Assembly (NCBI RefSeq): GCF_000661955.1
Contig: NZ_CP007597.1
Location: 1,853,605 to 1,917,604 of the forward strand
From: Stenotrophomonas rhizophila
GTDB taxonomy: Bacteria > Pseudomonadota > Gammaproteobacteria > Xanthomonadales > Xanthomonadaceae
Length of the DNA: 64,000 bases
Direction: 5' to 3'
Below are positions 44,933-62,039 of this stretch, piece by piece. Under the pieces are notes generated by a model. It was not told the DNA's origin. It was given only the letters and a program-made list of their open reading frames with translations, and searched no databases. How positions within the stretch are numbered: position 1 is the first letter of the stretch; each line of letters starts with the position of its first letter. The position numbers were made by a program, and so were the translations under genes.

Positions 44933-45023
44933 CCTGCGGCCAGCCCCCGACGGGGGCGGATGGCCATTCATCAGATGGGTCGCTACTGCTCCCTCGCCAC
45001 AGCTCAGGAGCAGCGCGCTCACG

Positions 45024-45194
45024 TCAGTGACGGGCGTTGTCTTTGGCCTTGCCCACTTCACTCTGCACCTTGCCAACGGTTTTCTGGGCCTTGCCTTCAA
45101 GCTCCTGAGCCTTGTCGCCGGTGACCTTGCCAGCTACTTCCTTCACGGTGCCCTTGACCTGGTTCTTTGCACCTTCGGTACGGTTCTTGTCCAT
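45024..45194 (-). CDS. CsbD-family small stress protein
   Basis: 56 residues from the ATG at 45194 with GCGAGG upstream. The sequence is nearly all charged or small residues in the CsbD pattern: NRTEGAKNQVKGTVKEVAGK, VTGDKAQELEGKAQKTVGKV. CsbD-like proteins are abundant general-stress proteins of unknown mechanism. It stands alone. Confidence 0.93.
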   Translation of the reverse strand: MDKNRTEGAKNQVKGTVKEVAGKVTGDKAQELEGKAQKTVGKVQSEVGKAKDNARH

Positions 45195-45459
45195 GTTCAA
45201 TGCCTCGCTGTAGTGCCCGGAGTGGGCTTGGCCATGCTGCTTGCGTGTGGGGTGTGGCGTGAGTGAAATCCTGGCGCGCGATACCAAACGGTTCAGGGTT
45301 GCAACGCTCGCGCGATGACGACAATGAAACAGCGCGGTCGCTGCATGACGTCTGCACTCGCGCTCCACATCCGGACGCTTACAGTTTTGCCCATCCCCTC
45401 CATGGCGCGCGCTCGTGAACCTGCAGACCTTCGTTTCCCATCCGCTTCCCCGGCGCGCG

Positions 45460-45705
45460 ATGCCCGATAGCTGCCAGTTCGATCTGCTGGATGTGCACGC
45501 GTTGCAAGACCCGAGCAGTGGACGCATCGTCCACCTGTATTCGATGGTGGCGCGTTGCCTGTCGTGCGAGGTGATCTTCAAGGCGCAGGAAGGGCAGGGT
45601 TTCGTCAGCACGTCAGCAGCGCGCGTCCTGCGTTGCCCCACCGGGTGCGGCGAGCAGGCGCTGAGAGGCGCGGCCCTGCGTCAGTGGCAGCTGCAATCGG
45701 CCTAG
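45460..45705 (+). CDS. Small zinc-ribbon protein, paralogue 3
   Basis: 81 residues from the ATG at 45460 (an in-frame GTG at 45415 would add 15). C33/C36 (CLSC) and C59/C63 (CPTGC, one residue longer than CxxC) align with the pairs in the genes at 8114-8398 and 21619-21948. The start MPDSCQF fits their M-P-x(4)-F pattern, and RIVHLYSMVARCLSC aligns with the RVLSVQAECLSC region of paralogue 1. Function unknown. The GTAG-ended tandem array begins 122 bp downstream. Confidence 0.7.
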   Translation: MPDSCQFDLLDVHALQDPSSGRIVHLYSMVARCLSCEVIFKAQEGQGFVSTSAARVLRCPTGCGEQALRGAALRQWQLQSA

Positions 45706-45760
45706 CAGCTGAAGCGCCCGGGAAGACTCCGGGGCGCTGTTGGTGCGTGGTGCGGGCAGG

Positions 45761-46685
45761 TCAGGCGGGCACGTTCCACTTTTCGTAGTCGGCCGCTTTC
45801 TGCTTGCGTGCTGCGCTGGACCTGGCTGGTAGGGTCGAACCTTGGTCGACTGCCGTGGAACGGCCAGCGTTCGGTGGCGACATGACGCTGGAACGGCGAG
45901 CTTGGTTGCGATCAACGGCGCGCCTCCGTTGAAGGTCATGCGTGCAATGGCGTGGACCGTGTATCGGCGGTCGTTTGGGAACCGACCCTACCGGGGCGGC
46001 GGCCCGGCTGTTTGCGGCAACGGAGGCCGTGACTGGGACGCCATGCGGGCGGGGCATTCCTGCTGCGCTCGTGGCTGGTAGGGTCGAACCTTGGTCGACT
46101 GCCGTGGAACGGCCAGCGTTCGGTGGCGACATGACGCTGGAACGGCGAGCTTGGTTGCGATCAACGGCGCGCCTCCGTTGAAGGTCATGCGTGCAATGGC
46201 GTGGACCGTGTATCGGCGGTCGTTTGGGAACCGACCCTACCGGGGCGGCGGCCCGGCTGTTTGCGGCAACGGAGGCCGTGACTGGGACGCCATGCGGGCG
46301 GGGCATTCCTGCTGCGCTCGTGGCTGGTAGGGTCGAACCTTGGTCGACTGCCGTGGAACGGCCAGTGTTCGGCGGCGACATGACGCTGGAACGGCGAGCT
46401 TGGTTGCGATCAACGGCGCGCCTCCGTTGAAGGTTATGCGTGCAATGGCGTGGACCGTGTATCGGCGGTCGTTTGGGAACCGACCCTACCGGGGCAAGCG
46501 GACCTGGCCGTTTGCGGTATGGGCAACCGCAGGACGTCGAAGTGCTTGGGCGTGCGTTCGGGCTTGCCCGTGACGGTCCAGCCTGCCTTTTTCACCGCCG
46601 CCAGGACGATGCCCGCGTCTGCTGGCGCGCATCCTGCAGCGTGGAGGGTGTTGCGAGACTGGGGTTCAATCCCCCTGCGTAGCAA
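45761..46685 (-). pseudogene. Hypothetical ORF interrupted by the GTAG array
   Basis: Two fragments flank the array on the minus strand. The 5' fragment (46685-46500) reads ADAGIVLAAVKKAGWTVTG, KPERTPKHFDVLRLPIPQT. The 3' fragment (45826-45761) reads RSSAARKQKAADYEKWNVPA and a stop. The two frames differ by one base. Removing the 682 bp between the two copies of GGACCTGGC joins them in phase, with the join at PQT-ARSS-AARKQ. No start codon is certain and the family is not recognised. The frame overlaps the end of the VOC gene upstream, so it may be a short downstream gene. Confidence 0.6.
45818..46508. repeat. 249-bp tandem array with GTAG ends and flanking 9-bp duplication
   Basis: Units start at 45828, 46077 and 46326 (period exactly 249 bp; two full copies and 170 bp of a third). 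The first two look identical, the third differs at a few bases. The array opens with GGTAGGGTCG (45828-45837) and closes with its reverse complement CGACCCTACC (46481-46490). GGACCTGGC occurs on both sides (45818-45826 and 46500-46508). Because 249 is divisible by three, several frames stay open through the array. These are not genes. The GTAG ends point to SMAG-type REP ancestry. Confidence 0.9.
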
Positions 46686-47022
46686 ACCGCAGCCGGTTGT
46701 GGTCCGGATCCACCACCATCATCTCGCGGCCGCCCCACGGCACATCGGCCGGCGCGCGGAACACGGCCGCTCCGGCGGCAACAAACGCGGCATGCAGTGC
46801 ATCCACGTCCGGCACATGGAAGTACACCGCACCGCCGGGTTCGCAGTCACCGGCATGTTCGGTCAGAAACAGCAGCTGGCCTTCGCGGCGGATCTGCACG
46901 AACAGCGGCATGTCGGGCGCGAAGCGGTGCTCCCAGTCGATGGTGAAGCCCAGCTGTTGGTAGAACGGCACGCTGACGGTTGCATCGGTCATGCGCAGCT
47001 GGGGGATGACGGTCTGTTGCAT
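46666..47022 (-). CDS. VOC-superfamily protein, bleomycin-resistance-like
   Basis: 118 residues: VIPQLRMTDATVSVPFYQQL for the first beta-alpha module, LFVQIRREGQLLFLTEH, VYFHVPDVDALHAAFVAAG for the second, and REMMVVDPDHNRLRFATQ at the end. This is the short cytosolic VOC fold of bleomycin-resistance-like and glyoxalase-like proteins. The second-module His (VYFH) and the final region fit, but the first metal ligand is not evident. It may bind rather than convert a small molecule. Confidence 0.88.
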   Translation of the reverse strand: MQQTVIPQLRMTDATVSVPFYQQLGFTIDWEHRFAPDMPLFVQIRREGQLLFLTEHAGDCEPGGAVYFHVPDVDALHAAFVAAGAAVFRAPADVPWGGREMMVVDPDHNRLRFATQGD

Positions 47023-47358
47023 CAGTTTCTCTCCGATGGCCGCGTTGCAGGGGACGACGGGCCGCTTGTGTGGGGACTGCGCGCGGTTCTTTCTCGTCGC
47101 CCCTGCATTCTAGAGTCCCGGGATGTGGCCGCGTTGCCACCGCAAGCACCGCATCGCGCACACCGCGATCGAATGGCTGCGCAACGATGGTGAAGCTTGA
47201 ATGGGCGTTATCTGAACCAGTCAGCTATGTGCTCAATTCCTTCACATCAGACGCTTCACCGTACGCTCCTCAGCTACCTGAATTGATTTAAGCTCCCGTC
47301 CCGGCGCCCATTCAGGTGCGCCGGTCTGGTTCTCTACCTTTCTTTGCAGGAATTCCGC
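47023..47358. other. Intergenic region before the stressosome operon
   Basis: 336 bases between divergent genes. A 25-codon frame (ATG 47123 to TGA 47200; RIAHTAIEWLRNDGEA) is present but has no clear RBS, and I cannot tell whether it is real. The AT-richer part from 47205 to 47300 probably holds the rsbR promoter. No operator was recognised. Confidence 0.4.
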
Positions 47359-61789: not shown

Positions 61790-61921
61790 AACGCCGGCCG
61801 CTGGCCCGCTCCCGATAACCCGGTAGTGCCGGCCGCTGGCCGGCTCCCGATAATCCGTGGAGCCGGCCAGCGGCCGGCACTACGCGGCAGGTCCGTGGAG
61901 CCGGCCAGCGGCCGGCACTAC
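61790..61921. repeat. SMAG GTAG repeat cluster
   Basis: Three 23-bp elements beginning GTAGTGCCGGCCGCTGG: plus strand at 61823-61845, minus strand at 61861-61883 and 61899-61921. The last two form a direct repeat with a 38-bp period. A degenerate copy precedes them at ~61790-61820. The array fills the gap before the DUF4124 gene. The rest of the 348-bp gap has no gene. Confidence 0.88.
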
Positions 61922-62039
61922 GCGGCAGGGCTGTCTGGCTGGCGTATGACCGCACAACAGGAATCGGGACGGCGGTACTGGTGCGCTCGCGTGCCAGCGG
62001 TCAAGAATGGCCCTTCAACGAACACGGCGGAGTGCATTC

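Follow-up and report, generated by a model that had tools for sequence, protein, structure and literature searches.

How did a tandem array of GTAG-ended repeats come to lie inside a gene of Stenotrophomonas rhizophila? The preliminary description of this locus saw in it a recent insertion that had split the gene and left a 9-bp target duplication. Comparison with relatives leads us to another answer. We consider the array, with a probability of roughly 85%, to be a BIME made of a 165-bp non-autonomous REP-pair (REPIN-type) element, which most likely depends on the RAYT gene at G000:C1:4107167-4107652.

Within the window (the whole stretch of 64,000 nucleotides that was analysed), Tandem Repeats Finder placed the array at 45823-46517, with a period of 249, 2.8 copies and a 98% match, in good agreement with the 2.7 copies of 249 bp described earlier. 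The array is built of three 165-bp elements on the + strand (45828..45992, 46077..46241 and 46326..46490) and of two 84-bp linkers between them (45993..46076 and 46242..46325). Every unit is opened by GGTAGGGTCG and closed by CGACCCTACC, which bears out the earlier statement that the array is GTAG-ended and finishes with the reverse complement of its start. Each element consists of GTAG-tagged REP hairpins set as an inverted pair, with a core; the 5' hairpin of element 1 (45833..45851, + strand, columns 6-24 of the 16-element alignment described below) has a 7-pair stem with one bulged base. Because each element is an inverted REP pair, the array qualifies as a BIME: the orientation of its REPs alternates, there are two linkers, and the modules stand in tandem. 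Elements 1 and 2 are identical, as are the two linkers, and element 3 differs from element 1 at three of 165 positions; the copies are thus as nearly identical as had been reported, and the last expansion or homogenisation of the array was, from this likeness, probably recent.

The array sits inside a dead gene on the minus strand. The C-terminal codons and the stop remain at 45761..45806 and the middle of the same gene at 46533..46629 (by tblastn, residues 87-124 lie at 46530-46643). The gene product, which matched no Pfam or NCBIfam name, is 158 aa long in G031, the closest relative, which at this locus is about 91% identical to the window. While many of 91 genus genomes are without the gene, eight relatives among them clearly match the remnant (over query residues 41-140 or most of these), and in all eight, every one of which was compared, the gene is whole and free of the array. 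A further search returned 12 loci, 10 of which, from Stenotrophomonas and Pseudoxanthomonas, align along residues 1-156 or 1-158; five of these 10 probably belong to genomes already among the eight. That an array now interrupts a gene that is intact in relatives was therefore correctly seen, but the array is not the only damage: a second lesion at 46630..46658 has cost the gene about 373 bp that are present in G031.

Nor does the array site in the relatives look as the earlier reading implied. Homology with G031 ends at 45806 and resumes at about 46530-46533, and the interval holds 62 bp in G031 as against some 726 bp in the window. Two flank remnants there are absent from G031: the left one (45807..45827) bears a weak likeness to the end of the linker (53 of 2000 shuffles scored as high), and the right one (46491..46532) is homologous to its start (0 of 2000 shuffles). 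The 62 bp of G031 are unlike both remnants (1601 and 1966 of 2000 shuffles reached their scores), and at this site all eight relatives encode about 20 residues (ARHDAGEWTELHVDFAGVIY in G031), with some changes. Deletion of 682 bp does join the frames on either side in phase, as can be computed from the ORF coordinates and as would happen in one case in three; the joined frame is not, however, the protein of the relatives, since it lacks those residues. The search for an empty site thus yielded eight array-free relatives, but G031, the closest, is not the window minus 682 bp.

As an observation on the G031 assembly itself, the same stretch is found with equal scores near both ends of its single contig (C1:20605-21752 and 4833494-4834641), perhaps an untrimmed overlap of a circular assembly.

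The likeness of flank to linker recurs in other arrays. We compared the first and last linker of 11 arrays with the outer flanks and counted the six arrays in which both borders are clean. In five of these six, the present array included, at most 1 in 1000 shuffles scored as high as the match of the linker to the outer flank on one side or both, the miss being L087 (12 to 84 of 1000 shuffles). Such matches in five of six arrays fit a tandem duplication of the element together with its flank, of the kind described for SMAG loci. They have to be weighed against the alternative that the array and its flank remnants arrived as one block, by recombination from elsewhere or from another strain, and replaced the 62 bp. 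Both remnants are unrelated to the G031 gene and the right one is linker-like, as suits such a block, and in a comparison of three of the five single-element loci (L073, L075 and L088) with the eight relatives, the DNA around the element was non-homologous at two. We nonetheless regard this alternative as unlikely, though the least so of those considered here: the intergenic comparison loci may simply diverge fast, at L088 the element is in place in G031 with homologous flanks, and the best candidates for a 111-bp linker query (at most nine per genome) from the 91 genomes included a full-length match in this array alone; no source of the linker emerged from that set.

The element itself belongs to a dispersed family. 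A search of the genome with the array unit yielded 115 matches (E up to 10), a good many of which lay within further arrays; 20 genome stretches with such matches were examined, and inverted pairs in 16 of these, together with the window, make 17 loci. Many dispersed copies of the REP are also evident from GTAGGGTCG, which occurs 101 times (48+53) against 45 for a reversed control. Elements measure 145-216 bp over these loci. When the REPs were trimmed off and the cores compared in both orientations, with one element taken per locus, likeness exceeded that of all 100 shuffles in 116 of 136 locus pairs, while the linkers that separate the REP pairs, judged by eye, differ among loci. Likeness of the cores beyond that of shuffles suggests that the mobile unit is the whole REP pair with its core, and it would then span the same 145-216 bp; the REPINs of Bertels and Rainey are reportedly shorter.

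Sixteen of the 17 elements were aligned, L077 being left out with its long extra insert, and the stem statistics and consensus fold that follow rest on these 16. Across the 16 loci a GGTAG head is joined to a stem that forms an imperfect palindrome. In the REP stems 96% of cells are paired (87% in shuffles) and 26 cells are compensatory (9.3 in shuffles), but neither the stem pairs changed on both sides (four of 14, against 3.3) nor further stem pair types (six, against 9.1) rise above the shuffles in this alignment. REP subtypes may share inheritance, so the covariation supports, and does not prove, the keeping of the hairpins by compensatory changes. As expected of REPINs, the two ends pair with each other in the predicted DNA folds of ten elements, and the predicted consensus fold allows a single long hairpin across the element.

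Core motifs common to several loci could also mean that the core is kept as a functional non-coding RNA or a protein-binding site. We find this improbable: no Rfam family was matched at E up to 1 within 45000-47200, and at L088, whose element is common to G031 and the genome studied here, 80 of 94 core columns are alike as against 92% identity over 1501 bp including the element, which at this one locus does not suggest constraint. At the present site the array is probably without a function of its own.

Two further observations concern the comparison with G031. The one element shared in place (L088/L113) is more diverged than its surroundings and has altered REPs in G031, which gives it a relic-like appearance. 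An apparent inversion of an element in situ between G000 and G031 vanished once the strands were matched (a score of 130 forward against 20 in reverse, where the best of 1000 shuffles reached 24).

The 9-mer GGACCTGGC, on which the case for a target duplication was built, lies at 45818..45826 and again at 46500..46508. Of 272 control pairs, each made of a left and a right flank from different loci, 271 contain no direct repeat as long as this (the remaining pair has one of 10 bp), and for this reason we do not call it trivial. The repeat, then, is real; its interpretation as a 9-bp duplication of the target fared less well. The right flank remnant aligns with the array's own linker over a stretch that includes the 9-mer, and linker-like sequence continues beyond it. 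At 10 of the 16 other loci, those with true outer borders, not one flanking direct repeat longer than 6 bp was found, so nothing like the 9-mer marks their borders. The other six (L074, L077, L079, L082, L083 and L084) were left out because more array sequence lies to the right of the border, which makes the comparison inapplicable there; array sequence also continues on the left at L079 and, by a short match, at L083. L086 and L088 were kept among the 10 despite an element-like match of 27-30 bp on the right. Enzymes of the IS200/IS605 type, moreover, are not known to make a target duplication. Ordinary transposition of the array, or of a single element that later expanded, with duplication of 9 bp of target in an otherwise intact frame, can thus call on the length of the 9-mer, the in-phase frames and the array-free relatives, but we give it very little credence, since the one-copy empty site that it implies occurs in none of the eight relatives, the 10 other loci with true outer borders have no flanking repeat longer than 6 bp and linker-like sequence runs on past the right-hand copy. 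We think that the 9-mer is part of an older flank or a product of chance, although it could still be an old duplication.

What might have moved such an element? A search for RAYT genes, as had been proposed, found four Y1-transposase genes of this kind in the genome, each adjoined by GTAG-type REPs, and the REPs beside the four are of four different sequences. The array's own REP class stands on both sides of the gene at G000:C1:4107167-4107652 (in locus L089, where the gene occupies 1384-1872, REPs end or start at 1388 and 2058-2064), and an array lies alongside. NCBIfam identifies the product as a REP-associated tyrosine transposase (147.1 bits against a cut-off of 80). Published RAYT genes are bordered by inverted REPs, whereas the exact REPs that lie closest to this gene on either side point in the same direction; the array on one side of it contains REPs in both orientations. 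The RAYT gene and its array are adjoined by three tandem 5S rRNA genes, 246 bp apart (L087:2125-2731).

The RAYT and the element go together across the genus. Among the matches listed, RAYT occurs at an identity of at least 68% in 10 of the 91 genus genomes, the present one included, and in three of the 10 (G028, G057 and G029) the match contains a stop codon. A covariance model made from the elements of the genome studied here found at least 30 matches in 12 of the 91 genomes (palindromes are counted on both strands, and the count stops at 32 candidates per genome), namely in all 10 RAYT genomes and in G053 and G059. Only these two of the 81 genomes without a listed RAYT at 68% or more are therefore element-rich, and none of the rest exceeded 12 matches. 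The association has a Fisher p of about 1e-11 if the genomes are taken as independent, which they are not. G059 has a 57% RAYT fragment flanked by different REPs, and G053 a 54% RAYT with the array's REP class absent from the stretch around it, so that both are real exceptions. The association, drawn from genome sequences, is consistent with mobilisation of the element by this RAYT.

The place of the gene is conserved as well. RAYT adjoins the same neighbour gene in G004, G005 and G057. In six other genomes (G031, G074, G072, G027, G026 and G047) that neighbour was matched with no RAYT beside it and, among the matches listed, none of at least 68% elsewhere. In G031 and G027 the stretch from the neighbour gene to the 5S genes holds no RAYT match; in G072 and G074 the stretch examined ends a few hundred bases beyond the neighbour gene. 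A remnant of the element persists at the RAYT locus of G031, where RAYT itself is missing. We infer that RAYT was ancestral here and was then lost in close relatives.

If the array is indeed a BIME of a RAYT-dependent element, its history could have run as follows. RAYT would have cut single-stranded DNA near a REP and copied the element into the region, and the element would then have been amplified in tandem along with neighbouring DNA, from which the linker arose. Loss of the 62 bp from the gene may have accompanied these events or been a separate one, and the gene may already have been dying or may have died along with the array's arrival. Immediately before GGTAG, 30 of 63 distinct contexts carry CC and 16 carry CT, the latter against 2.8 expected, an enrichment whose test is generous since contexts within one array are related. 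Cleavage at C|T near the REP has been reported for a purified REP transposase (PMC8266576), and a rolling-circle model has been proposed for the growth of BIMEs (PMC2817692). Cutting at C|T and rolling-circle growth would both fit the array here, as judged from its sequence.

An array of this kind is not new to Stenotrophomonas, where the arrangement is already known. BIMEs have been published for the genus (Nunvar et al., 2010; PMC2817692), and their modules likewise hold a pair of inverted REPs with two inter-REP segments and follow one another head to tail, with one rayt beside a BIME; no homology was reported there between inter-REP segments, whereas in the present genome the core enclosed by each pair is largely alike among loci. 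SMAG repeats (Roscetto et al., 2008; PMC2613905) are also GTAG-tagged, occur in tandem with flanking DNA and vary in copy number. The preliminary description was therefore mistaken in holding that REP/SMAG elements are usually seen only as dispersed relics, given the tandem arrays in both papers, and its REP/SMAG label does not suit the array either: the published SMAG consensus is GTAGTGCCGGCCGCTGGCCGGCA, which the array sequences do not match, the array having GGTAGGGTCG as its REP, another stem and a 249-bp unit. Elsewhere in the window, at 61793-61929, there are two short tandem arrays with periods of 35 and 38, and the GC-rich palindrome within their units (GCCGGCCGCTGGCCGGC) does resemble that of SMAG.

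The 13 REP classes SM1-SM13 (Nunvar et al., 2013; PMC3686654) share with the present one the GTAG head, the palindrome and a cognate RAYT with the REP beside it. In the table of that paper, no class starts with GTAGGGTC, the nearest by eye being SM6 (GGTAGAGTCGACTGTTAGTCGACT), and the stems given have 8-9 perfect pairs, whereas the array's REP has a bulge in its stem. REPINs (Bertels and Rainey, 2011; PMC3116915) are comparable in that they are described as inverted REP doublets capable of forming a hairpin and treated as non-autonomous mobile elements. Neither PMC2817692 nor PMC3686654 has GTAGGGTC in its main text, and a literature search for it together with Stenotrophomonas, with most subscription journals outside its scope, returned no match. 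Given these absences, it may be that the REP class and the common core have yet to be described.

Two points follow. First, the reading of this locus as a target duplication was corrected by real relatives. Second, a broader picture is, in our judgement, about as likely as not: an undescribed Stenotrophomonas REP class that has a RAYT of its own, conserved in position next to 5S rRNA genes, and a mobile unit of 145-216 bp with a shared core, that would spread where its RAYT is present and decay after RAYT loss, and whose arrays would take up host DNA as linker. With RAYT kept in some genomes and missing from others at one syntenic locus, the genus offers a natural comparison for the question of whether RAYTs drive the number of REP pairs per genome.
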